Shown here: piece after piece, positions 10,613 to 38,781 of the stretch
Numbering within the stretch: the stretch's first letter is position 1
Layout of the letters: every line of letters starts with the position of its first letter
Assembly: GCF_900184225.1 (NCBI RefSeq)
Contig: NZ_FXWZ01000003.1
Location: 186,001-250,000 of the forward strand
DNA length: 64,000 nucleotides
Source: Brevibacterium ihuae
Lineage (GTDB): Bacteria; Actinomycetota; Actinomycetes; Actinomycetales; Brevibacteriaceae
Reading direction: 5' to 3'
The notes under the pieces: generated by a model
Told to the model about the DNA's origin: nothing
The model's input: only the letters and a program-made list of their open reading frames with translations
Databases searched by the model: none
Translations under genes and position numbers: made by a program

Positions 10613-10668
10613 TCACCTGCGACAAGGTCCCGGTTTCCGCGTGATTCCGGGACATCTGTCGCAGGTGA
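10613..10668. repeat. Imperfect 56-bp palindrome, family C
   Basis: Left arm TCACCTGCGACAAGGTCCCGG pairs with a right arm CCGGGACATCTGTCGCAGGTGA, with a small bulge. The same core (GGGACATCTNCCGCANGTGAA) recurs at 12707-12733 and 12741-12763 on the other side of the DUF559 gene. Confidence 0.7.
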
Positions 10669-12674: not shown

Positions 12675-12763
12675 TTCACGTGCGGAAGATGTCCCGGATC
12701 CAGCGTGGATCCGGGACATCTTCCGCAAGTGAACGGCCCAGGGGACATCTGCCGCAGGTGAAC
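12675..12763. repeat. 59-bp palindrome, family C, plus an extra half-copy
   Basis: Arms 12675-12701 and 12707-12733 are 27 bases each with one mismatch and a five-base loop. A further half copy is at 12741-12763. The array lies between the stops of the convergent DUF559 gene and serA, so it may also terminate transcription. Confidence 0.8.
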
Positions 12764-23094: not shown

Positions 23095-24965
23095 GCCCCC
23101 GTCACGCCGGCCGGCCCGAGGACGCCGAGGTCGAGGAGCTGCCGCCGGACATCGCCCGGCGCGCCCGCCGTCTGCTCGCCTCCCTCGCCCGCCCCTACCG
23201 CGGCGGGATCATCGCCTTCGCCGTCATCGTGTCGGTGACGATCCTCGCCTCGGTGCTCGACCCGGTGTTCGTCGCACTCGCCCTCGACTCCGGTCTGCCG
23301 CAGGCGGTCGACGGCGACCCGGGCGCCCTGCTCGGGGCGATCCTCGGCTTCATCGGCGTCACGCTCGTCGGCGGCATCGGGATGTGGGCGGCCAACCGGC
23401 TCATCGGCGTCCTCGCGCAGCGGATCATGTTCGACCTGCGCACCCGCCTCTTCGTCCACACCCAGCGCCTCGACCTCGGCTACCACGAGAAGTCGACCAC
23501 GGGGCGGCTCGTGTCGCGCCAGACCTCGGACATGGAATCGGTCCAGCAGTTCCTCGGCAACTCGCTCATGGACGCGCTGTCCGCGCTCGGGCAGATGTCC
23601 CTCATCGCGCTCATCCTCCTCGTGCTCGACTGGCAGCTCGCGCTCGTCGTGTTCGCCGGGTTCATCCCGCTCGTGTTCACCACACGCGCCGCCCAGCGCT
23701 CCCAGCGCGCGGCCTTCCGCCGCACCCGGACCTCGATCGCCAAGGTCATCGTCCATTTCGTCGAGACCATGGGCGGCATCCGCGCAGTGCAGGCCTTCCG
23801 CCGCCAGCCCCACGGCCGGCGGCGGCTCGAGAGCGAGGACGAGCGGTACCGCGACGCCAACACCCGGGCCCTGCGCGGCGTCGCCTGGTTCGCCGGGTCG
23901 ACCCGCCTCATCGGCAACGTCACGCAGGCGGCGGTGATGGCGGTCGGCGCATGGTTCGTCATCGAGGACTGGACGCAGATCGGCGTCCTCGCCGCGTTCG
24001 TGCTCTACCTGCGCCGGTTCTACGGTCCTCTCGACGAGCTCGTCCAGACGTTCAACCTCTACCAGTCGGCGTCGGCCGCGCTCGAGAAGATCGCCGCGGT
24101 CCTCGACACCGAGCCCGCCGTCGTCGAGCCGCGCGCGCCCGCCGAGCTGCCGGCGCACCGCGACGACGCACCGGCCGGCGCGCAGTCCGGTGCACAGCCC
24201 GTTTCACAGCCTGCAGCGCGCGCGGCGACCGGCCGGGAGGTGGTGTTCGACGGCGTGCGGTTCGCCTACCCCGGCGGACCCGACATCCTCCCGACCTTCG
24301 ATCTCACCCTCGATGCGGGCCGGATCGTCGCGCTCGTCGGCGCGACGGGCGCGGGCAAGTCGACGCTCGTCAAGCTCGTCACCCGGTTCTACGATCCGAG
24401 CGCGGGGTCCATCCGGCTCGACGGGATCGACCTGCGCGCACTGGCCGATGGGGACCTCCGGCGATCCGTCGTCATGGTGACCCAGGAGTCCTTCCTCATG
24501 AGCGGCACGATCGCGGACAACATCCGGATCGGGCGCCCGGACGCCTCCGATGCCGAGGTCGCCGCCGCGGGCCGGGCGGTCGGTCTCGACACCTACGTGT
24601 CCCGCCTCCCCGACGGCTACGACACGGACGTGCGCACCCGCGGCGGGCGGCTGAGCTCGGGCCAGCGGCAGCTCGTGTCCTTCGCCCGGGTCTTCCTCGC
24701 CGACCCCGACGTCGTCGTGCTCGACGAGGCCACCGCGCACCTCGACATCCCCTCGGAGCGCCTCGTGCAGCGTGCGCTCGAGACCGTGCTCGCCGGTCGG
24801 ACCGCGATCATCATCGCCCACCGGCTGTCGACGGTGGAGATCGCCGACCGGGTGCTCGTCATGGACGCCGGCCGGATCATCGAGGACGGGGAGCCGGCCG
24901 CGCTCATCGCCGGGACCGGCCGTTTCGCAGAGCTCCACCGGGCCTGGCGGGACTCGCTCGTCTGA
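23091..24965 (+). CDS. ABC exporter half-transporter, subunit 2 (canonical ATPase site)
   Basis: 624 residues, partner of the preceding half. Membrane domain about 30-330, then an Ala/Pro-rich linker (about 345-380) and the ATPase domain: Walker A G-A-T-G-A-G-K-S-T, Q-loop V-T-Q-E-S-F, signature L-S-S-G-Q, Walker B V-V-L-D-E-A-T-A-H-L-D with the catalytic Glu, and H-loop A-H-R-L-S-T. With subunit 1 it should form one active and one weak ATP site. The ATG overlaps the previous stop (ATGA). Such pairs export drugs, lipids or peptides; which of these cannot be told here. Confidence 0.93.
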   Translation: MSPRHAGRPEDAEVEELPPDIARRARRLLASLARPYRGGIIAFAVIVSVTILASVLDPVFVALALDSGLPQAVDGDPGALLGAILGFIGVTLVGGIGMWAANRLIGVLAQRIMFDLRTRLFVHTQRLDLGYHEKSTTGRLVSRQTSDMESVQQFLGNSLMDALSALGQMSLIALILLVLDWQLALVVFAGFIPLVFTTRAAQRSQRAAFRRTRTSIAKVIVHFVETMGGIRAVQAFRRQPHGRRRLESEDERYRDANTRALRGVAWFAGSTRLIGNVTQAAVMAVGAWFVIEDWTQIGVLAAFVLYLRRFYGPLDELVQTFNLYQSASAALEKIAAVLDTEPAVVEPRAPAELPAHRDDAPAGAQSGAQPVSQPAARAATGREVVFDGVRFAYPGGPDILPTFDLTLDAGRIVALVGATGAGKSTLVKLVTRFYDPSAGSIRLDGIDLRALADGDLRRSVVMVTQESFLMSGTIADNIRIGRPDASDAEVAAAGRAVGLDTYVSRLPDGYDTDVRTRGGRLSSGQRQLVSFARVFLADPDVVVLDEATAHLDIPSERLVQRALETVLAGRTAIIIAHRLSTVEIADRVLVMDAGRIIEDGEPAALIAGTGRFAELHRAWRDSLV

Positions 24966-24984
24966 GGTCGCCGCCGTTGCCGCT

Positions 24985-26182
24985 TCAGGCCTCTGCGGTG
25001 GAGATCTCGAACCGTCCCTCGAGGGCGAGATGCACCGGGCACCGGTCCGCGATGCGGAGCAGGGAGCGGCGCTGGTCCGCGCTCAGCGCCGCGTCGAAGT
25101 CGACCGTCCGGGCGATCCGGGTGATCCGGTCGCCGTCGCGCTCGATCTGCCGGAAGGTGAGGTCGACGCGCGTGTCGCCGAGAGCGTACCCCTTGCGCCG
25201 GGCGTATATCCCCATCGTCATCGAAGTGCAGGCGCCGAGCGCGGAGAGCAGCAGGTCGAAGGGGTTGGGGCCGGCATCCTCTCCCCCGGCCACCGAATCC
25301 GGCTCGTCGGCGATCCAGGTGTGCGAATGCGTCTCGAGCACGGTGCCGAAGTCGGTGCGGCCGTCGGGCCGGGCGAGCACCCGGCCGGGGGCGAGGTCGG
25401 CATGGGGCGCCCGGGCATCGTCCGGGGCGTCGATGTAGCGTGCCGCCCAGGCCGCGATGACGCCGGCGGCATAGGCGCCCTGTCCGGGGCCGGTGAGCAG
25501 GTGATCCGCCCCGTCGAGGGCGATGAAGCTCTTGGGCTGGTGGGCCGCGCGGTAGATCGCCTGCGCGTTGTAGACGTCGACGATCTCGTCGCTCGGCGAG
25601 TGGAGGAGGAGCAGCGGCGTGCGCAGCGCCTCGATCCGCTTCGTCTGCTCGACGCTGCAGATGTCGTCGAGGAGCGCCTCCCCGATGACCACCGGACGGC
25701 CGCCGATCATCACCTCGGCCGAGCCCTCCCGCCGGATGTCGTCGATCGCGGATTCGAAGAGGCCTGTGACGTGGCCGGGGTCGAAGGGGGCGGCGATCGT
25801 CGCGACGGCGGCGAGCCCGTCGATCTCCGGAGCGACGGACAGCACCGCGGCCCCGCCGAGGGAATGGCCGATGAGCAGGCGGGGACGCATGGTTCTCGCC
25901 GAGCCAGTCGATGACCTCGCGGAGATCCTCACGGTCGGAGGAGAACGTCGAGTCCGCGAAGTCCCCCTCCGAGCCGCCGAGGCCGGCGAAGTCGAACCGG
26001 AGCACCGCGTAGCCCTCGTCGGTGAGCGCGCGCGAGACGCGCGAGGCTGCGGGCGACTTCGCCGAGCACGTGAAGCAGTGGGCGAACACCGCATAGGCGA
26101 GCGGGGTGCCCTCGGGCAGGTCGAGGAAGCCGCGGAGCTCCGTCCCGCGGGAGGACGTGATGCTGATCTCTTCGGTCGTCAT
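24985..26182 (-). pseudogene. Alpha/beta hydrolase-OsmC fusion protein, apparent frameshift
   Basis: From ATG 26182 the frame reads M-T-T-E-E-I-S-I-T-S-S-R-G and on to I-D-W-L-G-E-N-H, a normal hydrolase N-terminus. At about 25885-25888 it shifts: the next frame continues R-P-R-L-L-I-G-H-S-L-G-G-A with the nucleophile elbow. One extra base (or two missing) explains it. The rest has the hydrolase Asp (S-D-E-I-V-D) and His (G-A-D-H-L-L), then an OsmC domain with two redox Cys (L-G-A-C-T-S-M and D-R-C-P-V-H). OsmC domains reduce organic hydroperoxides; this fusion is a known two-domain family. If the shift is real the gene is broken; if it is a read error the protein would be about 400 residues and intact. 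Confidence 0.8.
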
Positions 26183-26381
26183 GGATCCCTCTCACCTCGA
26201 TGTCGTTCGACGCGCGGCGCCGGTCGGATGGACGCGCTCACCGGGATCGGTCGTTGCCCGACGCGGTCGAGGCATGGCACCGGTCCATCGCGCGCCCGAG
26301 GAGAACGGTACCCGCTCCGCCCGCACGCCGTGCTGGTGGTCCCGACGAGGCCTGACGTCCCCCGCCCCCTCCCCCACCTCC

Positions 26382-26441
26382 ATCGAGTGGTCGTGTTCGG
26401 TCGGATACTCGCGAGTATTCGACCGAACACGACCACTCGAT
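26382..26441. repeat. 60-bp palindrome, family A, copy 1
   Basis: Two 29-base arms starting ATCGAGTGGTCGTGTTCGGT around a central GC, with one mismatch. It lies between the divergent hydrolase-OsmC gene and the Xre gene, and is followed by a fragment of the C39-like peptidase gene. Confidence 0.9.
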
Positions 26442-26443
26442 GC

Positions 26444-26504
26444 GTCAGCGTGGCCAGCGGACGCCCTCCGGAGTCCGGGGCGCGGGGTCGTGGACGCGGA
26501 CGTC
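26444..26504 (-). pseudogene. 3-prime fragment of the C39-like peptidase gene
   Basis: Minus-strand reading gives D-V-R-V-H-D-P-A-P-R-T-P-E-G-V-R-W-P-R-stop. The intact gene has the same start (D-V-R-V-H-D-P-A-A-R-T-P-E-D-V-R) and the same end (V-R-W-P-R-stop), but 26 more codons between. The fragment therefore carries an in-frame 78-base deletion between GCGGAC microhomologies (27704 and 27782 in the intact copy). As in the intact gene, the palindrome follows two bases after the stop codon. Confidence 0.85.
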
Positions 26505-26512
26505 ACACAATG

Positions 26513-26576
26513 TGTCAAAGATGCTTGACATTGGAAGTCAAGGATGTTTGACTCGAGGTGTCAAGAATACTTCACA
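26513..26576. promoter_or_regulatory. Three tandem palindromic operators upstream of the Xre gene
   Basis: Three 18-base inverted repeats at 26513-26530 (TGTCAAAGATGCTTGACA), 26536-26553 (AGTCAAGGATGTTTGACT) and 26559-26576 (TGTCAAGAATACTTCACA), each separated by five bases, so a 23-base period. They end 29 bases before the Xre start codon and are much more AT-rich than the surroundings. Autoregulation by the Xre protein is the simplest reading. Confidence 0.75.
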
Positions 26577-26605
26577 TCGACAGCGATCACCGGAACGGAG
26601 GACGG

Positions 26606-26815
26606 ATGCCCGAGCTCGACGTCGGCGAGGTCACCCTCAAGGACCGCCGCAAGCACGCCGGACTCACCCAGGCACAGCTCGCCGGGCTCGTCGAGGTTTC
26701 CCGCCAGACGATCATCGCGATCGAGCGCGGCGATTACTCACCGAGCGTCTACCTGGCCCTGCGGATCGCCCGCAGCCTCGATACCACCGTCGAGGAGCTG
26801 TTCCCCCTCGACTGA
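26606..26815 (+). CDS. Small Xre-family HTH transcriptional regulator
   Basis: 69 residues, essentially one DNA-binding domain: L-K-D-R-R-K-H-A-G-L-T-Q-A-Q-L-A-G-L-V-E (10-29) with the helix-turn-helix, V-S-R-Q-T-I-I-A-I-E-R-G (30-41), then Y-S-P-S-V-Y-L-A-L-R-I-A and an E-E-L-F-P end typical of the YgzD-like small regulators. GGAGG lies a few bases before ATG 26606. Its operators are probably the three palindromes directly upstream. The membrane protein gene that follows (246 bases on) is its likely partner; small Xre plus multi-TM pairs are common in Gram-positives. Confidence 0.88.
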   Translation: MPELDVGEVTLKDRRKHAGLTQAQLAGLVEVSRQTIIAIERGDYSPSVYLALRIARSLDTTVEELFPLD

Positions 26816-27061
26816 TCCCTGCGGTCCTGCCGGGCCGCCGTCGCACTCGAACTGCAGACGGCGTCGACTCCGCACCGGGCCACCGCCTCGGGACCGGCCC
26901 CGCACGAGCTGACCACCTCGGGACCGGAGCCGAACCGCAAGCAGTCCGGTCGCACACCACGGGCCGCCCCGGCCCCGCACGACGAGCAGTTCCGGCGCCA
27001 CCTCGGAGGTCCCGCGTCGGACGACTCACCTCCTCCACAGCACATCACGAAAGGACTCGCC

Positions 27062-27610
27062 ATGACTGCCCCGCACGACTCCTCCCGCTTCGCCGGATTC
27101 GCCGACTCGATCAGCGGCGTCGACGACCCCTCGATGGGCGATGAGCGCGAGCAGATCATCATCCTCCGCGCCTACACCTTCGGCACCATCGTGGCGACGT
27201 ACGCCGCGTTCGCCGTCGGAATCGTCCTCGCCCTCATCGGCGTCGGCGCGTGGTCGGCACTCGTCGTCGTCACCGCTGGAGTCTCCGGGTGGGCGGTCCT
27301 GTGGTACTGCGCGCAGCACGGCATCGACCTCGCCGCCATGACCGAGCACGCAGGAGCGCGGCGGAAGGCGCTGACCTATGGATCGATCACCGTGCTCATT
27401 GCGATCTGGCTCGCCGCGTTCCTGTTCCACGCGATCACCGGCTCCCCGCTCATCCCGGTCGAACTCGGCTTCCCGGGCGGCGGCGACGGCATCGCGACGG
27501 CACTGGGCGCCCTCGTCGGCGGTGCCGTGGGGGTCGGGGCCGTGGTCCTCGCGCTCAAGCTGCTGAGCCGCAGGGCGAGCCGCGACGACGATGCCCCCGA
27601 CGAGGCCTGA
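27062..27610 (+). CDS. Four-TM membrane protein paired with the Xre regulator
   Basis: 182 residues, AAAGGA seven bases before the ATG. A polar start (1-35, ending D-E-R-E-Q-I-I-I-L-R) is followed by four hydrophobic segments: about 37-60, 64-85, 103-125 and 145-168, and a charged tail D-D-D-A-P-D-E-A. It follows the Xre gene on the same strand. No family recognised and no catalytic motif. A perfect 60-base palindrome lies 18 bases after its stop and separates it from the convergent peptidase gene. Confidence 0.75.
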   Translation: MTAPHDSSRFAGFADSISGVDDPSMGDEREQIIILRAYTFGTIVATYAAFAVGIVLALIGVGAWSALVVVTAGVSGWAVLWYCAQHGIDLAAMTEHAGARRKALTYGSITVLIAIWLAAFLFHAITGSPLIPVELGFPGGGDGIATALGALVGGAVGVGAVVLALKLLSRRASRDDDAPDEA

Positions 27611-27628
27611 CCCCGCATCCCTACCACC

Positions 27629-27688
27629 ATCGAGTGGTCGTGTTCGGTCGAATACTCGCGAGTATTCGACCGAACACGACCACTCGAT
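27629..27688. repeat. 60-bp palindrome, family A, copy 2 (perfect)
   Basis: Perfect 30-base inverted repeat centred on CGCG, between the convergent membrane-protein and peptidase stops. In RNA it would form a 29-30 bp hairpin and could terminate both genes. Confidence 0.93.
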
Positions 27689-27691
27689 ACG

Positions 27692-29095
27692 TCAGCGTGG
27701 CCAGCGGACCCGGTAGATCAGCCCGCCGCTGCCCTCGTGGGACAGCCAGGCTCGCTCGAAGGCGGCGCGCGGGTAGATCCGGCGGACGTCCTCCGGAGTC
27801 CTGGCCGCGGGGTCGTGGACGCGGACGTCGCCGTCGGCGGTGAGGCCGGAGACGACGAGGAGGTGGCCTCCCGTCTCGTAGCCGGCCTCGGGCAGTTCCT
27901 CCGCGTCGAACATCACCGAGGCGATGAACGGCTCCCCGGCGGCGAGGAGCTCCTCCCCCGCGCGGAGGTCCGGAAGCGTGTCGAGGAAGGCATCGAATCC
28001 GAGGGCGGCCGCCCACGCGGTGTTGAAGGCCCAGTTCCCGGCGCCGTCATAGGCCGCGTCCCAGACCCCGCGCAGGGCGGTGCGAACCGCGGGCGAGGCG
28101 CCCTCGGTGAGCGGGCCGTCGTCCTCGACCCGCCCAGCGACGGAGGACGCCGCGTCGTCACCCGGGCAGCCCCGGTCACCGGATCGAGCCGTGCCCGAGG
28201 TGCCCGCACACCCCGTCCCGTCCGCACCTCTCGACGGGGCGTCGACCGTCGCCGGAGTCCCCGGCACCACCGGATCCGCGCGTCCACCACGATGGTCGAG
28301 GAAGTCGAGGAGCATCGTGAGCGAGGTCGGCGAACACCACACGTCTCCCCCGCCGTAGCCGGGCAGCTCGCCCTGCCGGCGTTGGGAGATCGGCGGCAGG
28401 AGCAGCTCGATGTCGATGCCACCCGGAGCCGAGGGGACGATGTCCGCCCGTCGGGGCGCCGGACCTCGGGTGAGGACGGAGATCCGTTCGAGCACGGGGA
28501 GCTCCCCCGATGGCCCGGGATGGAGGAGCGCTTCGACCTCGAACACGTCCGCCGCTCCGCCGAGCGCCGAGGCGTCGACCCGCACGGTGTCCGCCTCGAC
28601 CGTGATCCCGTGCACCGCCTGCCCGGGCACTGTGGTCGACCGGAATTCCGGATCGGTCGACCAGCGGGCGACCACCGCCCGGTCCGACCATCCTGCGGCC
28701 GACGCGCCGCCGGTACCCCTGCCCGCATCTGCGCTCGGGGTCGCACCGTCGTCCACGGCGGGCCCGGACGAAGAGATGCCGGAACCTTCCTGCCCAGCCG
28801 GAAGGGTTTCGGAGTTCTTCTGCCCGGTCGCAGGGGTGTCGGACTCCTTCTCCCCCGTCGGTGCAGCGCCGGAGCTTCCCGGGGCAGCGACACCGCCGGC
28901 GCGACCGGTACCGCTGCTCCGGCCGACCCGGATCCGCACCTCGATCGAGGTCCCGGCCGGGGTGCGGGCGGTCCACGTGGGGATCGCCTCGCTGAATGCG
29001 GCGACGTGCACCGATGGGGCCTCCCACCGATGCACGCCGTGGTCCTCTGCGCGGATCCGTCCGCGCACGTGCGTCACCGTCATCCCGGCCGTCAC
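27692..29095 (-). CDS. C39-like (papain-fold) peptidase family protein
   Basis: 467 residues; GTG 29095 is the longest start, ATG 29083 (M-T-V-T-H-V-R-G) is the alternative, and neither has a clear ribosome site. The first 200 residues hold a carbohydrate-recognition-like beta region split by a Gly/Ser/Thr/Ala-rich insert (about 65-130). The peptidase domain carries G-G-D-V-W-C-S-P-T-S-L-T-M-L-L-D with the candidate nucleophile Cys, E-T-G-G-H-L-L-V-V-S-G-L with the His, and V-R-V-H-D-P-A-A with the Asp. A second low-complexity insert (about 285-335) splits the domain. Related proteins occur in many actinobacteria without a known substrate. No signal peptide, so probably cytoplasmic. The gene is flanked by palindromes on both sides. 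Confidence 0.8.
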   Translation of the reverse strand: MTAGMTVTHVRGRIRAEDHGVHRWEAPSVHVAAFSEAIPTWTARTPAGTSIEVRIRVGRSSGTGRAGGVAAPGSSGAAPTGEKESDTPATGQKNSETLPAGQEGSGISSSGPAVDDGATPSADAGRGTGGASAAGWSDRAVVARWSTDPEFRSTTVPGQAVHGITVEADTVRVDASALGGAADVFEVEALLHPGPSGELPVLERISVLTRGPAPRRADIVPSAPGGIDIELLLPPISQRRQGELPGYGGGDVWCSPTSLTMLLDFLDHRGGRADPVVPGTPATVDAPSRGADGTGCAGTSGTARSGDRGCPGDDAASSVAGRVEDDGPLTEGASPAVRTALRGVWDAAYDGAGNWAFNTAWAAALGFDAFLDTLPDLRAGEELLAAGEPFIASVMFDAEELPEAGYETGGHLLVVSGLTADGDVRVHDPAARTPEDVRRIYPRAAFERAWLSHEGSGGLIYRVRWPR

Positions 29096-29100
29096 ACCAC

Positions 29101-29158
29101 TCGAGTGGTCATGTTCGGTCGGATACTCGGGAGTATTCGACCGAACATGACCACTCGA
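29101..29158. repeat. 58-bp palindrome, family A, copy 3
   Basis: Arms of 28 bases with one mismatch around a central GG; it begins TCGAGTGGTCATGTTCGGTC, with A where the other copies have G (and the matching change in the other arm). It lies between the ilvD stop (29177) and the peptidase start, and would terminate ilvD transcripts. Confidence 0.9.
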
Positions 29159-29176
29159 GGGTGTCCTGGGAGAGTC

Positions 29177-30895
29177 TCAGTCCGTCGTCACCGCGCCGGA
29201 GGACGCCGAGCCGACGAGCTTCGCGTACTTGCCGAGGGTGCCGGTGAGGCGGTGGTTCTCCGGCACGGTCCACGACTTCCGCCGCTCGGCGAGCACGTCC
29301 TCCGCGACGTCGAGCTCGATCGTCCGGGCGGCGATGTCGACCCGGATCCGGTCGCCGTCCTCGACGAGAGCGATCGGCCCGCCGTCGACCGCCTCGGGGG
29401 CGACGTGGCCGATGCACAGACCCGTGGAGCCGCCGGAGAACCGGCCGTCGGTGATGAGGAGGACGTCCTTGCCGATGCCGGCGCCCTTGATCGCGCCGGT
29501 GATCGCGAGCATCTCGCGCATGCCGGGGCCGCCCTTGGGACCTTCGTAGCGGATGACGACGACGTCGCCGGGCTTGAGCTCCCCGCCGAGCACCGCGTCC
29601 ATCGCCGGCTGCTCCTGGTCGAACACCCGCGCCGTGCCCTCGAAGACATCGGCGTCGAAGCCGGCGGACTTGACGACCGCACCCTCCGGGGCGAGCGAGC
29701 CGTGGAGCACGGTGAGCCCGCCGGTGGCGTGGATCGGGTTGTCGAGCGCGCGGAGGATCTTGCCATCGGGGTCCGGCGGGTTGATCGACGCGAGGTTCTC
29801 CGCGACGGTCTTGCCCGTCACGGTGAGGCAGTCGCCGTTGAGCAGACCGGCGTCGAGGAGCGCCTTCATCACCACCGGCACGCCGCCGATCTTGAACACG
29901 TCGTTCATCACGTAGTCGCCGAACGGCTTGACGTTGCCGAGGTGCGGGACCCGGTCGCCCACCCGGTTGAAGTCCTCGAGGGTGAGCTCAACCTCGGCCT
30001 CGTGGGCGATCGCCATGAGGTGGAGGACGGCGTTCGTCGAGCCGCCGAACGCCATGACGACGGCGATCGCGTTGAGGAGCGAGTCGCGGGTGATGATGTC
30101 GCGGGCGGTGATGCCCTGCTTGAGGAGGTTGACCACGGCCTCGCCGGACTGGCGGGCGAAGAGCGTGCGGTTGCGGTGGATCGCCGGGGGCGCGGCCGAG
30201 CCCGGCAGGGACATGCCCATCGCCTCGGCGGCCGAGGCCATGGTGTTCGCGGTGTACATGCCGCCGCAGGCGCCCTCGCCCGGGCACACAGCGCGCTCGA
30301 TCGCGTCGACGTCGGCCTCGGTCATCTTGCCGGCGCGGCAGGCGCCGACCGCCTCGAAGGCGTCGATGAGCGTGACCTCCTTCTCCGTGCCGTCGGAGAG
30401 CTTCGCGGTGCCGGGCATGATCGAGCCGTTGTAGAGGAACACGCTCGACAGGCCGAGGCGCGCGGCGGCCATGAGCATGCCGGGGATCGACTTGTCGCAG
30501 CCGGCGAGGAGCACGGAGCCGTCGAGCCGCTCGGCGTTCATCACGGTCTCCACGGAGTCGGTGATGATCTCGCGCGAGACGAGCGAGTAGTGCATGCCCT
30601 CGTGTCCCATCGAGATGCCGTCGGACACCGAGATCGTCCCGAACTCGAGGGGGTAGCCGCCGGCGTTGTGCACGCCCTCCTTGGCGAAGCCGGCGAGCTT
30701 CTCGAGCGTGAGGTTGCACGGCGTGATCTCGTTCCACGACGAGGCGACGCCGATCTGCGGCTTGACCCAGTCGCCGTCGTCCATGCCGACCGCGCGGAGC
30801 ATTCCGCGCGCGGCCGCCTTCTCGAGTCCGTCGGTCACATCGCGGGACCGGGGTTTGATATCGACACCGGGCTTGACATCCGTTTGTTCGCTCAT
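29177..30895 (-). CDS. ilvD: Dihydroxy-acid dehydratase
   Basis: Dehydrates 2,3-dihydroxyisovalerate and the isoleucine analogue to 2-keto acids; an Fe-S enzyme of the IlvD/Edd family. 572 residues. Seen: [13 protein letters not shown] (cluster Cys), [10 protein letters not shown] (second Cys), and [18 protein letters not shown] (third Cys). The pattern with all three Cys suggests a [2Fe-2S] type, as in mycobacterial IlvD. G-R-F-S-G-G-S near the C-terminus is the conserved active-site Ser loop. TAGACT (30902-30907) lies exactly six bases before the ATG, so a leaderless message. Confidence 0.97.
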
Positions 30896-31042
30896 GCTCG
30901 CAGTCTAGATCCGGGGGTCGGGTTTGTCGCCGGTCCGTCACATCCTGGACGCCCGGACAGCGCCCGCCGAGGCCTCCCCGCGCTGCCCGGGCCTCCCTTG
31001 CCGAATCGTCCTCGACAGGGCGGGTTGGATAGGATTCTCCCC

Positions 31043-31060
31043 ATGGTGATCCCTTCATGA
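31043..31060 (+). CDS. Putative five-codon leaderless upstream ORF
   Basis: ATG-GTG-ATC-CCT-TCA-TGA. TAGGAT (31030-31035) is seven bases before this ATG, so the message probably starts here. Its TGA overlaps the ATG of the CNNM gene (ATGA at 31057-31060). The CNNM gene has no convincing ribosome site, so terminating ribosomes may re-initiate on it. This is inferred from spacing alone. Confidence 0.5.
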   Translation: MVIPS

Positions 31061-32544
31061 CGGCCGCCTGGCTGCTGCTCCTCGCCGTCGTCGCACTCAT
31101 CCTCGCCAACGCCCTCTTCGTCGCGGTCGAGTTCGCATTCCTCACCGTCAACAAGAACGAGGTCCGGCGCGCCGCGTCCGACGGCGACCGGACGATGCAG
31201 GCGGTGTCCGATTCGCTGTCGAAGACTTCGAGCAACCTCTCCGGGGCCCAGCTCGGCATCACGGTGACGAGCCTCGTCGTCGGCTTCCTCACCGGACCCT
31301 CGCTCGGCGTCCTCCTCGCCGAGGGGCTCGGCTGGACGGGCATGTCCCCCGCCGCCGCGACCGGTATCGCGACCACCGCGGCCTTCGTCATCGCGACCTT
31401 CAGCCAGATGGTGTTCGGTGAGCTCGTCCCGAAGAACTGGGCGATCGCCGAACCCGCCCTCGTGTCCCGCCTCGTCGTGTTCCCGCAGAAGGTCTTCATG
31501 GCGATCTTCGGTTGGCTCGTGTGGGTCCTCAACTCCGCGGCCAACGTCGTGCTCCGGCTCCTCGGCTTCACCCCCGAGGAGGAGGTCGCGAGCGCGCGCA
31601 CCGCTCAGGAGCTCCGCGCGGTCGTGTCGCAGTCGGGCCAGCAGGGCACCCTCGACCGCACCACCGCCGAGCTCGCCGCCCGCTCCATCGAGTTCGGCCA
31701 GCGCACCGCCGCCGACGTCATGCAGCCCCGGCCCCAGGTGACCTTCCTCGACGAGCACTCCGCGCAGGACCTCCTCGATCTCGTCGCCGCCACCGGCCAC
31801 TCCCGCTTCCCGGTCACCGGGGACGGCGTCGACGACATCGTCGGGGTCGTCCACTTCAAGCACGCCCTCGCCGTCCCCCACGAGCAGCGCGTCACCACCC
31901 CGGTGCGCGATCTCGTCGTCGACGTCCCCCACGTCGTCGAATCGATGACCCTCGACCCGCTCCTCGCCGAGCTCCGGGAGCCCGGCCTCCAGCTCGCGAT
32001 CGTCGTCGACGAGTACGGCGGCACGGCGGGCATCGTCACGCTCGAGGACCTGCTCGAGGAGATCGTCGGCGAGATCGACGACGAACAGGACCCCGGCGAG
32101 GACAAGCACGAGCGCCTCGCCGACGGCGGGATCGCCGTGTCCGGGCTGCTCCGACCCGACGAGCTCGGCGAGATCCTCGACCTCCGGCTGCCCGAGGGCG
32201 AGGAGTCGGACACCCTCGGCGGACTCATCGCGGAGATCCTCAACCAGATGCCCGAGCCCGGTGACCGGATCGAGCTCGACGGGAAGGACCTCTCGGACAC
32301 CGATGAGGACGACCTGCCGACGCCGGCCCGCATCGCCCTCGCCGTGGAGACCATGGACGGCCAGCGGGTCGGTCGCATCATCGTCCACCGCATCGCCCTC
32401 AACCCGGAGGACGATGCCGAGCCGGACAGTGACCGTGCCGACACCCCGGAACCGCCGGAGGGCCGTGCGGGCGACGATCGGGTGACGGCCTCCCCCGGTG
32501 AGCACACCGGATCCACCGCCGCCACGGAAGGAGAACGCTCATGA
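31057..32544 (+). CDS. CNNM/CBS-domain membrane protein with CorC_HlyC domain
   Basis: 495 residues. The N-terminal DUF21/CNNM domain has three to four membrane segments (about 1-25, 60-85, 95-125, 140-165) including F-V-A-V-E-F-A-F and F-G-E-L-V-P-K-N-W-A. Two CBS domains follow (about 215-340, with V-V-D-E-Y-G-G-T-A-G-I-V-T-L-E-D-L-L-E-E-I between them and the next part) and then a CorC_HlyC domain (about 350-450), with a disordered acidic tail. CNNM/CorC proteins act in Mg2+ (or Co2+) efflux. It overlaps the next gene by four bases; the pair is one unit, ending at the 33621-33654 terminator. Confidence 0.9.
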   Translation: MTAAWLLLLAVVALILANALFVAVEFAFLTVNKNEVRRAASDGDRTMQAVSDSLSKTSSNLSGAQLGITVTSLVVGFLTGPSLGVLLAEGLGWTGMSPAAATGIATTAAFVIATFSQMVFGELVPKNWAIAEPALVSRLVVFPQKVFMAIFGWLVWVLNSAANVVLRLLGFTPEEEVASARTAQELRAVVSQSGQQGTLDRTTAELAARSIEFGQRTAADVMQPRPQVTFLDEHSAQDLLDLVAATGHSRFPVTGDGVDDIVGVVHFKHALAVPHEQRVTTPVRDLVVDVPHVVESMTLDPLLAELREPGLQLAIVVDEYGGTAGIVTLEDLLEEIVGEIDDEQDPGEDKHERLADGGIAVSGLLRPDELGEILDLRLPEGEESDTLGGLIAEILNQMPEPGDRIELDGKDLSDTDEDDLPTPARIALAVETMDGQRVGRIIVHRIALNPEDDAEPDSDRADTPEPPEGRAGDDRVTASPGEHTGSTAATEGERS

Positions 32545-33590
32545 GCGACGGCGTCGCGATCCTCGTCCTCGTCCTGCTGCTCGCTGGCAACGCCTTCTTC
32601 GTCGGCGCCGAGTTCGCCATGGTGTCCGCGCGCCGCGATCAGATCGAGCCGCGGGCCACCGAGGGCGGCACCGCCGCGCGCTGGACGCTGCGCGGCATCA
32701 CGGACGTCTCGGTCTCGCTCGCAGCCACCCAGCTCGGCATCACCGCGTGCTCGCTGCTCATCGGCGCGGTCGGCGAACCGGCGATCGCCCACCTCATCGA
32801 GGGTCCGCTCGAGTCGTGGGGCGTGCCCGGCGGGCTCGTCCATCCGATCGCGCTCGTCATCGCGCTCCTCATCGTCACCTTCCTCCACATGGTGCTCGGC
32901 GAGATGGTGCCGAAGAACATGGCGATCGCGAAGCCCGCGGCATCCGCCCTCCTGCTCGGCCCGGTCCTGCGGGTGTTCGTCGTCGTGTTCCGCCCCTTCA
33001 TCTGGCTCATGAACACCGCCGCGAACCTCGTCGTCAAGCACGTGCTCCGCGCGGAGCCGAAGGACGAGGTGTCCTCCTCCTTCACCTCGGCCGAAGTGCT
33101 CGAGTTCGTCACCGAGTCCGGGCGCGAGGGCCTGTTGGACAGCGAGGAGATCCGGCTGCTCACCGGTGCGCTCAAGTTCGAGGAGCTCACCGCCTCCGAC
33201 GTCGCGCTCCGACCCGGCACGGTGCGCACGATCGCACGGACCGCGACCGTCGCCGAGGTCGAGGAGCTGTGCGCCGACACCGGGTTCTCACGGTTCCCCG
33301 TCACCGACGACGCCGGCGGACTCGCCGGCTACGTCCATGCCAAGGACCTGCTCGGCCTGCCCGCCGAGAAGCGCGGGGAGCCGATCCCCGCCGAGGCCGT
33401 CCGCGAGCTCGCCTCGGTCCCCGCGGACGCGAAGCTCCGGCGGGTGATGATGACGATGCAGCGGACGAACTCCCACATGGCGATCATCGACGGCGGTCCC
33501 CGCTCGGCCGACGAGGTCTCGGTCATCGCCCTCGAGGACGTCCTCGAGAAGCTCGTCGGCGAGGTGCGGGACGCCACCAGCCCGGTCTGA
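32541..33590 (+). CDS. Second CNNM/CBS-domain membrane protein, short form
   Basis: 349 residues, a paralogue of the preceding protein: V-G-A-E-F-A-M-V-S-A-R-R at about 14-25, V-L-G-E-M-V-P-K-N-M-A-I-A at 116-128, three to four membrane segments, then two CBS domains (about 205-340). It lacks the CorC_HlyC domain. The ATG overlaps the upstream stop (ATGA). Tandem long plus short CNNM genes are common in actinobacteria; the two may form a heterodimer, since CNNM domains dimerise in known structures. Confidence 0.9.
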   Translation: MSDGVAILVLVLLLAGNAFFVGAEFAMVSARRDQIEPRATEGGTAARWTLRGITDVSVSLAATQLGITACSLLIGAVGEPAIAHLIEGPLESWGVPGGLVHPIALVIALLIVTFLHMVLGEMVPKNMAIAKPAASALLLGPVLRVFVVVFRPFIWLMNTAANLVVKHVLRAEPKDEVSSSFTSAEVLEFVTESGREGLLDSEEIRLLTGALKFEELTASDVALRPGTVRTIARTATVAEVEELCADTGFSRFPVTDDAGGLAGYVHAKDLLGLPAEKRGEPIPAEAVRELASVPADAKLRRVMMTMQRTNSHMAIIDGGPRSADEVSVIALEDVLEKLVGEVRDATSPV

Positions 33591-33620
33591 GACCGGGGCT
33601 CGAGCACGGTTCCGACGCTC

Positions 33621-33654
33621 AAGGGGGCCGGGTGCAGCTGCACCCGGCCCCCTT
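33621..33654. terminator. Bidirectional terminator between convergent genes
   Basis: A perfect 34-base palindrome (AAGGGGGCCGGGTGCAG and its complement) between the CNNM stop (33590) and the dehydrogenase stop (33674). It ends in CTT, with an A-pair on the other side, so it works for either strand. Confidence 0.88.
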
Positions 33655-33673
33655 CAGCAGGTCTCCCCGCCGA

Positions 33674-34627
33674 TCACTCCTCGACGATGTTGAGGAGATC
33701 CTGACCGGACTGGATGCGGAGGAGCTGCTCGGCGAGCAGGGCCTCGATGCGCGGGACGAACGCCGTCGTGTCGCCGCCGACGTGCGGGGTGAGGAGGGTG
33801 TTGGGCGTCCCCCACAGCGGGTGGTTCTCCGGCAGCGGCTCGGGGTCGACGACGTCGAGTGCGGCGTGCAGACGGCCGGACCGGAGCTCCTCGACGAGGG
33901 CGTCGGTGTCGATCACCGGGCCGCGCGCGACATTGACGACGAGCGCGTTGTCGGGCAGCTGGGCGAGGAACTCCGCATCGACGAGGTGATGCGTGGAATC
34001 GGTGAGCGGTGTGATGAGGATGACGACCTCGGCGTGCGGGAGGAGCTTCGGCAGCTCGTCGGCGCCGTGCACCCGTCCGTGGTCGTCGGTCCGGGCGCGG
34101 GACCCGACCCGGGTGATCTCGACCTCGAACGGCTCGAGCCGCCGGCAGATCTCGGTGCCGATGCCGCCCACCCCGACGATGAGCACGCGGCGGTCGGCGA
34201 GCGAGCGACGCCGCCGGTGGTTCCACGTCCGCGACACCATGTCGCGCGCGGCGTCGTCGATGCCGCGCAGGCTGCCGAGGGTGAGCGCGACCGCCATCTC
34301 CGCGGTCGCCGCGGCGTGCACGCCCGAGGCGGTGGCGATCCGCGCGCGGCCGCCCAGCCGGTCGGCGACGATGTCGTAGCCGGTGGTCTGGAGCTGGATG
34401 AGCTCGAGGTTGGGCAGCTCGTCGAGGAGCGCGGCAGTGGGACTCGCATCGAGATAGGGCAGGACGATCGCGTCGATCGAGTCCCTGCTCACTCCGGGGT
34501 CCCGGTGCTCCGCGGACCACACGACGAGCTTGAGATCGGCATGCTGATGATCGGGGATCCGCGCGTCCACGTGATCGCGCAGCTCGGCGTCCGGAAAGGC
34601 GATGGTGCGGATGTCGTGAGTCGTCAT
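33674..34627 (-). CDS. D-isomer-specific 2-hydroxyacid dehydrogenase
   Basis: 317 residues. NAD domain G-V-G-G-I-G-T-E-I-C-R-R-L in the middle, then N-V-A-R-G-P-V-I-D with the catalytic Arg, E-P-L-P-E-N-H-P-L-W with the Glu, and L-T-P-H-V-G-G with the catalytic His. The family oxidises or reduces D-2-hydroxy acids; the substrate is not evident, and glyoxylate/hydroxypyruvate reductase is one possibility. ATG 34627 is chosen because residues upstream are Pro/Arg-rich. A weak CACAAT lies six bases before it. It is 67 bases from the MarR gene stop on the same strand. Confidence 0.9.
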   Translation of the reverse strand: MTTHDIRTIAFPDAELRDHVDARIPDHQHADLKLVVWSAEHRDPGVSRDSIDAIVLPYLDASPTAALLDELPNLELIQLQTTGYDIVADRLGGRARIATASGVHAAATAEMAVALTLGSLRGIDDAARDMVSRTWNHRRRRSLADRRVLIVGVGGIGTEICRRLEPFEVEITRVGSRARTDDHGRVHGADELPKLLPHAEVVILITPLTDSTHHLVDAEFLAQLPDNALVVNVARGPVIDTDALVEELRSGRLHAALDVVDPEPLPENHPLWGTPNTLLTPHVGGDTTAFVPRIEALLAEQLLRIQSGQDLLNIVEE

Positions 34628-34694
34628 GCCCTCATTGTGGCAGACCGCACCGCAACCGGACGGGCCGTCGCGACGCCTGGCCGCGGCCGCCGGT

Positions 34695-35174
34695 TCACGG
34701 CAGCCGCGCGGCGATCGAGCGGCTGATCCGCAGGAGGTGCTCGGCGTCGCCGGGTGCAAGCGCCTTCTCGAAGTGCTCGGCGATGTGGGCGCGGTGGATC
34801 CGGCCGGCCGCGCGGAACTCGTCCCAGCCGGCGTCGGTGAGCGTGATGAGGTGAGCGCGGCCGTCCTGCGGGCACGCGCTCTTGACGACCCAGCCCTTCT
34901 TCTCGAGGAGCCCGATCCGGTACGTGAGCCGGGGGGCGGAGAACACGAGGCGCTCGGCGAGCACGCTCATCCGCAGGGTGCGGGCGGGCGCCTCGACGAG
35001 GAGGAGCAGGAGGTTGTAGTCGCTCAGGCCGAAGCCCACCTCCCGGCGGAGCTCGGCGTCGAGCAGACCGACGAGCCGCTGGGACGTCTCGAAGTGGCTC
35101 CGCCAGGCGTCGAGCACGCTCGCCTCCGCGAGCAGGTTCGGCCGGGTGGCCTCAGGTGCCGAGGAGCTGGTCAA
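34695..35174 (-). CDS. MarR-family transcriptional regulator
   Basis: 159 residues. The winged HTH spans about residues 45-115: L-S-D-Y-N-L-L-L-L-L-V-E, R-M-S-V-L-A-E-R-L-V-F-S-A-P-R-L-T-Y-R-I (recognition helix), and the wing D-G-R-A-H-L-I-T-L-T. Dimerising helices are at each end. It is the last gene of an operon with the flavin reductase (23-base overlap) and the LLM monooxygenase. MarR proteins in such settings sense small aromatic or oxidising compounds. Two palindromes upstream of the operon (36992-37025) are its likely operators. Confidence 0.9.
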   Translation of the reverse strand: MTSSSAPEATRPNLLAEASVLDAWRSHFETSQRLVGLLDAELRREVGFGLSDYNLLLLLVEAPARTLRMSVLAERLVFSAPRLTYRIGLLEKKGWVVKSACPQDGRAHLITLTDAGWDEFRAAGRIHRAHIAEHFEKALAPGDAEHLLRISRSIAARLP

Positions 35175-35772
35175 AGGGGGTCACCGCCTCGGGGTCGAGG
35201 TCGTCGAACACGCTCCGGGTCTCCGCCGGCTGGGCGGCGACGAGCTCGGCGAGCTCCTCGGCGACGGCGCGGACCCGGCCGCCCATCCCGGACACCGCCT
35301 CGGGCGCTCCCCAGTCGTCGGTCGCGGCGAACACCGAGGTCGGGACCGCGAGCCCCTTGAGGTAGGCGACGAGCGGCCGGAGCTGCGCGTCGATGACGAG
35401 CGAGTGCCGGGAGGTGCCTCCGGTGGCGGCGAGCGCGACGGGGATGCCGCGCAGTCCCGCGTCGGGGAACAGCTGCCAGAACAGGGACACGAGGCCGAGC
35501 GGGGCGGCGTTGTAGACCGGGGTGACGATGACGAGGCCGTGCGCGGTGCGGATCCGCTCGAACGCGGATTCGAGCGCCTCGGAGGCGATGCCGGTGAGCG
35601 TCATGTCGACGAGGTCGTGCGCGAGCGGACGGAGCTCGATGATCTCGATCTCCGCCTCGGCGCCGACCGGCCGCAGCTGCTCGCGGACCGCGGCGAGGAT
35701 GCGCTCGGCGAGCGCGGTCGAGTTCGACGGGTCACCCGTGCCGCCGGAGACGGCGACGATGCGGTACGTCAT
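35152..35772 (-). CDS. NADPH-dependent FMN reductase, partner of the LLM monooxygenase
   Basis: 206 residues, flavodoxin-like. I-V-A-V-S-G-G-T-G-D-P-S-N-S-T-A (5-20) is the FMN phosphate loop, and T-P-V-Y-N-A-A-P-L-G-L (84-94) lies at the flavin ring. It resembles the CE1759-type reductases that are encoded beside CE1758-type LLM monooxygenases. It would supply reduced FMN to the monooxygenase, whose stop overlaps its start by four bases (ATGA). That coupling argues for a working two-component system. Confidence 0.88.
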   Translation of the reverse strand: MTYRIVAVSGGTGDPSNSTALAERILAAVREQLRPVGAEAEIEIIELRPLAHDLVDMTLTGIASEALESAFERIRTAHGLVIVTPVYNAAPLGLVSLFWQLFPDAGLRGIPVALAATGGTSRHSLVIDAQLRPLVAYLKGLAVPTSVFAATDDWGAPEAVSGMGGRVRAVAEELAELVAAQPAETRSVFDDLDPEAVTPFDQLLGT

Positions 35773-36953
35773 CGCGCACCCCCTGCGGTCGCGGATTCGG
35801 TCTCGCGCTCGGCGCGCGCGGCCCGGTCGCGGTAGGCCTGCGATTCGGGACCGCCGCCGGCCACCGGGTCCTCGCCCGCCCGGTGGCGCTCGACGAGCCA
35901 TGCGTGGGTCGGGGCGTCGGGGACGTCGGCCGGGCGTGCGGCGTCCATCTCCCTGCGGAGCACCGGGAGCACCTCGGCGCCGAAGATGTCCATCTGCTCG
36001 AGCACGGTGTCGGTCGGCAGACCGGCGTGGTCGATGAGGAACATCAGGCGCTGGTAGTCGCCGGCCCAGTCGCGCATCGAGAGGTAGCGCTCGATGACCT
36101 GCTGGGGGCTGCCGACGGTGAGCGGGGTCTGCGCGGTGAAGTCCTCGAGGCTCGGACCGTGGCCGTAGACCGGGGCGTTGTCGAAGTACGGGCGGAACTG
36201 CGTGACGGCGTCCTGCGAGTTCTTCGCCATGAACACCTGCCCGCCGAGGCCGACGAAGGCCTGGTCGGCGCGACCGTGGCCGTAGTACTCGTACCGCTGG
36301 CGATAGAGCTTGACCATGCGCGCGGTGTGCGAGGCCGGCCAGAAGATGTTGTTGTGGAAGAACCCGTCGCCGTAGTAGGCGGCCTGCTCGGCGATCTCGG
36401 GGCTGCGGATCGAGCCGTGCCACACGAAGGGCGGCACTTCGTCGAGCGGGAAAGGCGTCACGGTGAACCCGTTGAGCGGGGTGCGGAGGTTGCCCTCCCA
36501 GTCGACGTTCTTCTCCCGCCACAGGCGGTAGAGGAGGTTGTAGTTCTCGATCGCGAGCGGGATGCCCTGCCGGATGTCCTTGCCGAACCACGGGTAGACC
36601 GGGCCGGTGTTGCCGCGGCCCATGGTGAGCGAGACGCGGCCCCCGGACAGGTGCTGGAGGTAGCCGTAGTCCTCGGCGAGCCGGGCGGGGTCGTTCGTCG
36701 TGATGAGCGTCGTCGCCGTCGAGAGGCGCAGCGTCGAGGTGGTGGCGGCGACGTGGGCGAGCAGGACCGCCGGGTTGGCCGGGGCGACGAAGGGCGGGTT
36801 GTGGTGCTCGCCGGTGGCGAACACGTCGAAGCCGACCTCCTCGGCCTTCTGGGCGATCCGCAGGGTGGACTGCAGCCGCTCGTGCTCCGTGGGGGTGGTT
36901 CCGGTCGTGGGATCGGTGGTGACATCGCCGATCGTGAAGACGCCGATTTCCAT
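35769..36953 (-). CDS. LLM-class flavin-dependent monooxygenase
   Basis: 394 residues; luciferase-like monooxygenase TIM barrel: M-E-I-G-V-F-T-I-G-D at the start, A-T-G-E-H-H-N-P-P-F-V-A with the conserved His pair, R-V-S-L-T-M-G-R-G-N-T-G-P (the flavin loop), and G-S-P-Q-Q-V-I-E-R-Y-L. ATG 36953 is chosen over an upstream codon because AAGGAG lies six bases before it. It needs reduced FMN from the adjacent reductase and O2, probably oxidising an organic compound; the substrate is unknown. First gene of the operon controlled from 36992-37025. Confidence 0.9.
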   Translation of the reverse strand: MEIGVFTIGDVTTDPTTGTTPTEHERLQSTLRIAQKAEEVGFDVFATGEHHNPPFVAPANPAVLLAHVAATTSTLRLSTATTLITTNDPARLAEDYGYLQHLSGGRVSLTMGRGNTGPVYPWFGKDIRQGIPLAIENYNLLYRLWREKNVDWEGNLRTPLNGFTVTPFPLDEVPPFVWHGSIRSPEIAEQAAYYGDGFFHNNIFWPASHTARMVKLYRQRYEYYGHGRADQAFVGLGGQVFMAKNSQDAVTQFRPYFDNAPVYGHGPSLEDFTAQTPLTVGSPQQVIERYLSMRDWAGDYQRLMFLIDHAGLPTDTVLEQMDIFGAEVLPVLRREMDAARPADVPDAPTHAWLVERHRAGEDPVAGGGPESQAYRDRAARAERETESATAGGAR

Positions 36954-36991
36954 GATGCTCCTTCGTGCTCGACTGCGCACCGAGCTCTTTT

Positions 36992-37025
36992 GTTGAACTC
37001 TCAACTACTTGGTTAAAAGTTTAAC
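36992..37025. promoter_or_regulatory. Pair of palindromes upstream of the LLM operon
   Basis: GTTGA-ACTC-TCAAC (36992-37005) and GTTAAA-AG-TTTAAC (37012-37025), 14 bases each with centres 20 bases apart, two helical turns. They lie 39-72 bases before the LLM start codon in a short AT-rich stretch. Both fit MarR-type operators (TTGA/TCAA half-sites); the MarR gene closing the operon is the obvious candidate regulator. Confidence 0.7.
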
Positions 37026-37172
37026 ACATTGACCGGCGCAGGTATTCCCGGCGGCGTTCGGCGGGGGAAGGCACAGCGGTCAGAGCAGGACGGTTGAAGT
37101 GGGATGGGCGGAGTGGGCGTGGGTGGGGCCGGTGCGGTGAGCGAGCGTCATGGAACGGGATGTCCTCACCCG

Positions 37173-37232
37173 ACTGCGCGGCATCTTTCGATCTGCGCGC
37201 AATTGCGCGTGGATCGAAAGATACCGCGCAGT
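37173..37232. repeat. 60-bp palindrome, family B
   Basis: 30-base arms (ACTGCGCGGCATCTTTCGAT... and its complement) with three mismatches around AATT. It lies in the 355-base spacer between the LLM operon and the methyltransferase. Same length as family A but different sequence; single copy here. Apart from this and the operators, I see nothing in the spacer. Confidence 0.85.
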
Positions 37233-37308
37233 ACGCACGGCGCCGGCGAGGGCCGAGACGCCGGTTCTCCCCCTCGGGCGCCTACCCTCGCCTCCCGGAG
37301 GCTCCGGC

Positions 37309-38082
37309 TCACACCCGGCCGAGGCGCCCGCGGAGCGGCCAGCGGAACGTGTGCCTGCGGGCCGGGTCGCCCCAGAGGGCACGGAGGTCGGCGGCGAAGG
37401 CGGCGAACACGTCGTCCCGGCCGGCCTCGGCGGCGGCGTGCACCGCCGTCCACGTCGACACGTAGCCGAGGAAGTCGTCGAGCGCGAGATCGCGGACGAT
37501 GGCGAGGTCCGACATCGGGAGCTCGGGGAACGGGAAGGCGAGGGTCGCGTAGCCCGCGTCGACGTGACGGCGCTCCGGCGGCCAGAACGGACCGATCCCC
37601 TCCGTGTAGAAGCGATCGAACATGGGAGCGAACTCCGGCGGCGTCTCGATCACGCCGTAGCTCACGAGGGCGAGGACGGCGTGCGGTGCCGCGACCCGCC
37701 TGACCTCGGAGTAGAAGGCGTCGAGATCGAACCAGTGAGCGGCCTGCGCGGCGGCGACGAGGTGGACGGAGGCATCCGCGGCGGGCAGCGCCTCGGCGGG
37801 CGCTCGGACATAGGTGATGCGCGGGTGCGCGGTGGCGCGGGACAGCTGATCGGCGCTCGGGTCGGCGCCGATGACACGGGTGAAGTGCTCCGCGAGGCCG
37901 CGCGTCAGCTGTCCGGTCCCGCAGCCGACGTCGAGAGCGCAGAGCTCCGCGTCGTCCGCAGAGCCGGAGGCGGCAACAGACCGGCGAGCCGCCTCCGCGA
38001 GGTGGGCGGCGAGCTCCGGAGGGTACGAAGGCCGGAACCGAGCGTAGCGCTCGGCTCCGGCCTCGAACCGGTTCCGGGTCAT
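37309..38082 (-). CDS. Class I SAM-dependent methyltransferase
   Basis: 257 residues. Motif I L-D-V-G-C-G-T-G-Q-L-T-R-G-L (about 50-63) binds SAM; motif II I-G-A-D-P-S-A-D-Q-L; and A-A-Q-A-A-H-W-F-D resembles the Methyltransf_11 proteins related to UbiE/trans-aconitate methyltransferases. The opening R-F-E-A-G-A-E-R-Y-A-R-F-R-P-S-Y-P fits the same group. Substrate unknown. 37 bases separate it from cysE on the same strand, so it may be read through from the cysE-cysK operon. Confidence 0.88.
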   Translation of the reverse strand: MTRNRFEAGAERYARFRPSYPPELAAHLAEAARRSVAASGSADDAELCALDVGCGTGQLTRGLAEHFTRVIGADPSADQLSRATAHPRITYVRAPAEALPAADASVHLVAAAQAAHWFDLDAFYSEVRRVAAPHAVLALVSYGVIETPPEFAPMFDRFYTEGIGPFWPPERRHVDAGYATLAFPFPELPMSDLAIVRDLALDDFLGYVSTWTAVHAAAEAGRDDVFAAFAADLRALWGDPARRHTFRWPLRGRLGRV

Positions 38083-38119
38083 GAGCGGGCCACCCGGCCC
38101 GTCCGCTGCGGCATCCGGA

Positions 38120-38776: not shown

Positions 38777-38781
38777 CGTCC

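Follow-up and report, generated by a model that had tools for sequence, protein, structure and literature searches.

A local duplication around a dispersed 58-base hairpin most likely accounts for an apparent mobile-element footprint in Brevibacterium ihuae

The locus and its duplicated segment

In a 64,000-nucleotide stretch of the Brevibacterium ihuae genome (contig NZ_FXWZ01000003.1, positions 186,001 to 250,000; hereafter the window, in whose coordinates positions are given), a gene for an Xre regulator and a gene for a 182-aa putative membrane protein lie between two direct copies of a segment that includes the 3' end of a C39-like peptidase gene. Such a layout resembles the footprint of a mobile element. 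Comparison with Brevibacterium sp. CS2 (NZ_CP040020.1), the best match to the locus among the relatives searched, indicates that the apparent footprint most likely stems from a short local duplication enclosing a 58-base hairpin of a dispersed family. The features of the locus are as follows.

26341..26504, no strand: left copy of the duplicated segment, made up of the membrane-protein gene end (26341-26356), a C-rich spacer, the palindrome and the peptidase end with a 78-base deletion; defined by repeat comparison, missing in CS2
26383..26440: 58-bp hairpin of the left copy, in a palindrome at 26381-26442 with 30/31 pairs
26505..26605, plus strand: region upstream of the Xre gene with TTGAC/TGTCAA repeats, a putative operator; conserved in CS2 from GTGTCAA (26512)
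26606..26815, plus strand: resident Xre/HTH_3 regulator, 69 aa (Pfam HTH_3, 1.9e-14); CS2 counterpart 97% identical
27062..27610, plus strand: 182-aa protein, a putative membrane protein by the label of the first-pass annotation; no Pfam family above cut-off and no NCBIfam match
27596..27829, no strand: right (source) copy, made up of the membrane-protein gene end, the palindrome and the peptidase's last codons; both genes syntenic in CS2
27630..27687: 58-bp hairpin in a perfect palindrome (27629-27688), where the membrane-protein and peptidase genes converge
27692..29095, minus strand: Peptidase_C39_2 gene (5.7e-12), with matches in 5/57 genus genomes
29101..29158: third 58-bp hairpin of the family, between the ilvD stop and the peptidase start

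The repeat described in the first-pass annotation is real, with 79/81 identical positions between 26382-26462 and 27629-27709 and 45/48 between 26457-26504 and 27782-27829. The in-frame 78-base deletion that it placed at GCGGAC motifs is seen as a shift in the start-to-start offset from 1247 to 1325, and the left copy retains, on the minus strand, the peptidase end VRWPR followed by a stop codon (by eye). The repeat exceeds this first description, as the left copy extends over 26341-26504 and includes the 3' ends of both convergent genes, one on each side of the palindrome. The sequence CCCGACGAGGCCTGAC, with which the membrane-protein gene ends (its final codons and stop), is present at both 26341-26356 and 27596-27611, and the C-rich spacer that follows it differs in length by 8 bases between the copies. 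The two ungapped blocks, which exclude this spacer, show 5 differences between the copies in 129 positions. The 98-nt and 51-nt matches of the duplicated segment (93% and 92% identity) are above chance level; other direct-repeat families of at least 45 nt in the window reach 62-86%, the best being a 58-nt pair at 1100/1193 (86%). The first description also missed a third palindrome of the family, which occupies 29100-29159 in the interval from ilvD to the start of the peptidase gene.

Comparison with CS2 and the genus

Gene order and orientation in CS2 are identical to those in the window (hydrolase, Xre, membrane protein, peptidase, ilvD), but the left copy is absent from the CS2 locus, as are all three window palindromes. 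When the left copy was removed in silico, the two upstream regions aligned up to and through the GTGTCAA block; the left copy ends about 7 bases short of this CS2-conserved block, which starts at 26512. As the pair occupies the same site in CS2 without repeats, we consider the Xre and membrane-protein genes to be resident and the left copy to be the addition. Identity to CS2 is 82-87% in the main neighbouring blocks and 75% in the membrane-protein gene. The duplicates, with 5 differences in 129 positions, have therefore diverged less than the two genomes have (13-18%, and 25% in the membrane-protein gene), which places the duplication after the split if rates are similar.

These comparisons bear on the earlier proposal of a passive cassette of 1.1 kb, made up of the pair, that entered the peptidase gene at its 3' end and is bounded by att-like (attachment-site) repeats and mobilised by an integrase acting in trans. 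Integrative elements that use gene 3' ends and leave att repeats are known as a class, and like them this locus has a gene 3' end directly repeated on either side of other genes, with the peptidase stop kept in the left copy. The statement that the pair lacks an integrase also holds, the Xre protein matching HTH families and the 182-aa protein no significant family. Unlike such an element, however, the pair sits at the same place in CS2 with neither flanking repeat nor palindrome. The repeat also contains the 3' end of the pair's own membrane-protein gene, which is unexpected for an att core in the peptidase gene, and the pair is conserved in 44/57 genus genomes. The suggested check for relatives that have this site but lack the pair found none among the 57, and a search of 72,556 plasmid records with 26300-27900 matched only stretches of the peptidase gene, in 2 records, which speaks against plasmid carriage. 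Insertion of a cassette is thus highly improbable. The alternative offered beside it, a tandem duplication, comes close to the reading that we favour, although as a route it has about an even chance and stands alongside template switching. A false mobile-element call is thereby removed, and the case illustrates how a hairpin repeat combined with a local duplication can mimic an att-flanked cassette.

Within the genus, the 182-aa protein was found in 44 of the 57 genomes, and the same 44 have an adjacent strong Xre match (at least 65 bits; coordinates by eye). The neighbours of the peptidase gene vary. Five genomes carry the gene, and the pair adjoins it only in B. ihuae (G000) and CS2 (G003); the 182-aa protein matched nothing in G018 or G069, and in G036 the pair and the peptidase lie about 7.6 kb apart. 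In the stretches examined from G018 and G036 (L014 and L015), the peptidase has an ABC transporter pair beside it, and ilvD is without a match.

Several smaller differences from CS2 were seen at the locus. The Xre and membrane-protein genes of B. ihuae are separated by 246 bases (26816-27061) with imperfect 30-base repeats; in CS2 their stop and start codons overlap (by eye). The CS2 homologue of the membrane-protein gene (L013, 7225-7773) has one in-frame TGA. The hydrolase/OsmC gene (24985-26182, minus strand) shows an apparent frameshift relative to CS2 at 25870-25895, with a 2-base length difference (by eye), and appears to be a pseudogene or to contain a sequencing error.

The hairpin family

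The hairpins conform to the pattern GAGTGGTC-N38-GACCACTC, of which the B. ihuae genome has 12 copies with exact 8-base tips (11 on contig C3 and one on contig C2; reversed control 0), three in the window and nine elsewhere. All 12 have a total length of 58 bp, and 10 have exact 10-base tips; a variant copy lies at C3:1556k. For 3 of these 13 copies a hairpin is present at the matching CS2 site: at C3:1707k it is identical, and at 341k and 782k the arms have changed but mostly still pair. Seven copies (the three in the window, 990k, 1315k, 1429k and 1556k) have no hairpin at the CS2 site, with only the left flank aligning at 1429k. The copy at 1557k is ambiguous, with a degenerate hairpin in the same CS2 intergenic region, and the comparison leaves out C3:1462k and C2:1073k.

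Outside this genome the family is patchy. A scan of genome contigs returned at least 120 stretches. The 80 listed comprise 53 from Frigoribacterium, 10 from Microbacterium resistens and 17 from others, including Leifsonia, CS2 and a Propionibacterium metagenome-assembled genome (MAG). Frigoribacterium faeni NBRC 103066 has at least 25 copies among the contigs listed. A few stretches, among them L133, L154 and L155 from MAGs outside the actinobacteria, resemble tandem motifs that arose by chance. In a sample of 198 genomes of the order, the 10-base-tip pattern matched only B. ihuae (control 0), and the exact-tip family is therefore sporadic. A looser pattern gave 18 forward matches in 7 genomes of the genus other than B. 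ihuae and CS2, against 7 control matches in 4 genomes; these counts are too near to the control to establish the family in the rest of the genus. A half-site pattern matched B. ihuae, gave a single weak site in G062 and another in G034, and had none in CS2; the control matched three times elsewhere.

Whether copies share flanking sequence depends on where they lie. Of 22 hairpin pairs within a locus, 4 share flanks at a score of at least 20 (two in L128, one in L099 and the one in this window) and 6 at a score of at least 15 (L128, L099, L085 and this window); in every case the orientation is direct. Among 4509 pairs from different loci, a score of 20 is reached by only 2, each joining two Frigoribacterium strains, and a score of 15 by one more, in the Propionibacterium MAG; for B. 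ihuae itself, pairs taken from separate loci score at most 10. It therefore seems that dispersal moves the hairpin alone, whereas local duplication carries flanks. In F. faeni (L128, 4000-5000), three hairpins lie within about 720 bases, with flanks shared in direct orientation and G-rich repeated DNA around them.

One could suppose that the hairpins are themselves transposable units, similar to miniature inverted-repeat transposable elements (MITEs) or to REPINs, of the group of repetitive extragenic palindromic (REP) elements, and that the left copy arose by a transposition that dragged flanks along. The lineage-specific copies, 7 of the 13, and the low flank similarity between loci of the B. 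ihuae genome are compatible with this idea. Against it, the Y1 transposase that serves REP elements (PF01797, RAYT or TnpA_REP type) was found in 0/5 carrier genomes, with a positive control in 5/14; other transposase families were not searched. No target duplication was visible by eye. We consider this explanation unlikely, and the absence of the Y1 enzyme from the five carriers argues against a RAYT-type REP in particular.

The hairpins resemble REP elements in several respects. Like REP, BIME and REPIN elements that are mobilised by RAYTs, the hairpins are short, dispersed intergenic palindromes that are amplified within a lineage and lie near gene 3' ends. REPs are described in the accessible part of PMC3733652 as 20-40 bp long, with stems of 5-13 bp and mostly with an unpaired GTAG or CGTC tag. 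The present hairpins differ in having a stem of about 24 bp, a total of 58 bp and no apparent unpaired tag (by eye); CGTC frequently spans the base of the stem, where it commonly pairs with GACG from the opposite end (by eye). The same part of that source mentions untagged REP-like repeats in Mycobacterium tuberculosis, Deinococcus radiodurans, Bordetellae, Brucellae and Cyanobacteria, to which the present hairpins can be likened by description, though not by sequence, as dispersed palindromes without a terminal tag; it gives no family with these stem bases, and its main text does not mention actinobacteria, Arthrobacter, Clavibacter, Kocuria or Microbacteri. A table in PMC12306157 names Arthrobacter, Acidipropionibacterium and Acidimicrobium species, and the accessible text has no mention of Brevibacterium, Microbacterium or Frigoribacterium. 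Listings of literature on REP elements (also in actinobacteria), terminators, dispersed stem-loops, 58-bp repeats and Brevibacterium palindromes yielded no description of the hairpin family, which is no proof that it is unpublished.

Other identities were considered and set aside. Single motifs resembling uptake signals do not fit, with 186/214 TCGAGTGGTC sites in the fetched loci paired, though these loci were selected for pairs. No viral contig carried the pattern, a weak argument against phage carriage given that an arbitrary control pattern also gave 0. For a known RNA family, Rfam returned 5 matches up to E 1 on window positions 24000-39000, all below the gathering score.

Base pairing in the hairpin was assessed by covariation in 35 sequences (12 from B. 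ihuae, 2 from CS2 and 21 selected from 71 others) out of 85 distinct 58-bp sequences overall. In this set 94.5% of cells are paired, 192 cells are changed on both sides against 68.4±5.9 after shuffling, and the covariation score is 0.540 against 0.141 in shuffles. Two of the five measures are weak: the number of pairs changed on both sides was reached by 57/500 shuffles and that of further pair types by 8/500. Across all 71 database sequences, values above those for independence are seen at pairs 11-24, though the excess is small at 21-24. Columns 25-28 come close to the expected value, which the innermost column exceeds once more (38 vs 26.5). The invariance of the tips is a product of the search selection and is uninformative. 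We read the element as a predicted stem of about 24 bp with a loop of about 10 nt, although the B. ihuae copies are paired almost to the centre.

The position of the hairpins relative to genes, called with a simple codon-based custom script, points to transcript ends. Of 72 Frigoribacterium hairpins, 31 lie between convergent genes, 29 between tandem genes and 2 between divergent genes, while 5 fall within called genes and another 5 at the edges of loci; intergenic length predicts 16, 28 and 18 for the 62 intergenic copies. The probability of two or fewer divergent copies is 2e-7 if the copies are independent; the 72 are distinct with their flanks and come from non-overlapping loci, although two pairs or more are orthologous in different strains. 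Sixty of the 62 intergenic copies follow a stop codon, and 48 of the 60 distances are at most 109 bases. In Microbacterium resistens there are 3 convergent copies, 5 tandem and 2 at edges, and all 8 intergenic copies follow stop codons. The B. ihuae copies comprise 7 convergent, 3 tandem and 2 divergent (expected 1.7, 7.5 and 2.8); 10/12 follow a stop codon, one of them 521 bases away. From position and covariation, the hairpins are best read as REP-like 3'-end elements that would fold in RNA and might act as bidirectional terminators or transcript-end stabilisers. Like intrinsic, including bidirectional, terminators they present a strong hairpin a short way past stop codons, in many cases where two genes converge; they differ in lacking a T-run and in being dispersed repeats with a common stem base. 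Terminators with T-runs are regarded as scarce in GC-rich bacteria, and the hairpins could be transcript-end elements of such genomes.

Routes of duplication and further hairpin families

We are confident in the combined explanation of hairpin arrival, local duplication and REP-like 3'-end elements. The repeat, the gene order, the absence of the left copy from CS2 and the 5/129 differences are direct observations, from which we infer the route. In this lineage, a dispersed 58-bp hairpin would first have settled where the membrane-protein and peptidase genes converge. The membrane-protein 3' end, the hairpin and the peptidase 3' end would then have been duplicated about 1.25 kb leftwards in direct orientation, just upstream of the putative Xre operator. 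The left hairpin is one of the 2/12 B. ihuae copies in a divergent position, which fits its arrival by duplication.

This duplication could have followed either of two routes. In the first, which has roughly even prospects, a unit of Xre gene, membrane-protein gene and peptidase end was duplicated in tandem, and the first unit was later lost except for its tail. In the second, a replication fork stalled at the palindrome, with its 30-bp arms, and template switching copied the palindrome with its flanks, jumped 78 bases at GCGGAC in the same event and left a single insertion upstream of Xre. Template switching would account in one event for a copy centred on the hairpin, for the jump at a 6-base match and for the absence of further duplicated DNA, and Frigoribacterium likewise has recurrent local hairpin copies with shared flanks. 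The centring is in part ascertainment, however, because any duplicate found through the hairpin must include it; no junction is diagnostic, and the 78-base deletion could be a separate, later event. We regard template switching as a credible possibility that falls somewhat short of even.

Several points weigh against the combined explanation. The comparison rests on one close relative, in which the left copy and the hairpins may instead have been lost. The junctions show nothing that discriminates tandem duplication from template switching. No T-run follows the hairpins, and a terminator scan of window positions 24500-31500 found none of them, the other B. ihuae copies likewise lacking one. 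REP elements have the same 3'-end bias without needing a terminator role. Finally, the covariation may stem from replication errors that correct palindromes rather than from selection on the fold. The hairpins are most likely REP-like elements that were dispersed by some route and act at transcript ends.

Two further families of such repeats have members in the window, and this repeated geometry is the part that merits attention. A speculative, and rather doubtful, proposal is that actinobacteria carry a class of dispersed hairpins of near-fixed length (58-60 bp), with family-specific stem bases, a covarying inner stem and no RAYT, spread by an undescribed hairpin-copying or processing route of which local copies like 26341-26504 would be the footprint. 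The third family, represented by the palindrome at 12675-12733, by window positions 10650 and 12743 and by the pattern ACCTGCGG(C/A)AGATGTCC, has 33 half-sites in the genome (control 1) and is at background in CS2 (5, control 7) and in F. faeni (6, control 5). The second family, with a palindrome at 37173-37232 and the pattern CTGCGCGG...CCGCGCAG, numbers 24 half-sites in B. ihuae and 2 in CS2 (control 0). The palindrome is present in 11 of 16 B. ihuae stretches inspected (L196-L198 and L200-L206 among them) and missing from 5. Each of these palindromes is exactly 58 bp from CTGCG to CGCAG, although 54-62 was permitted, and covariation occurs mainly at two inner columns, where both arms vary together.

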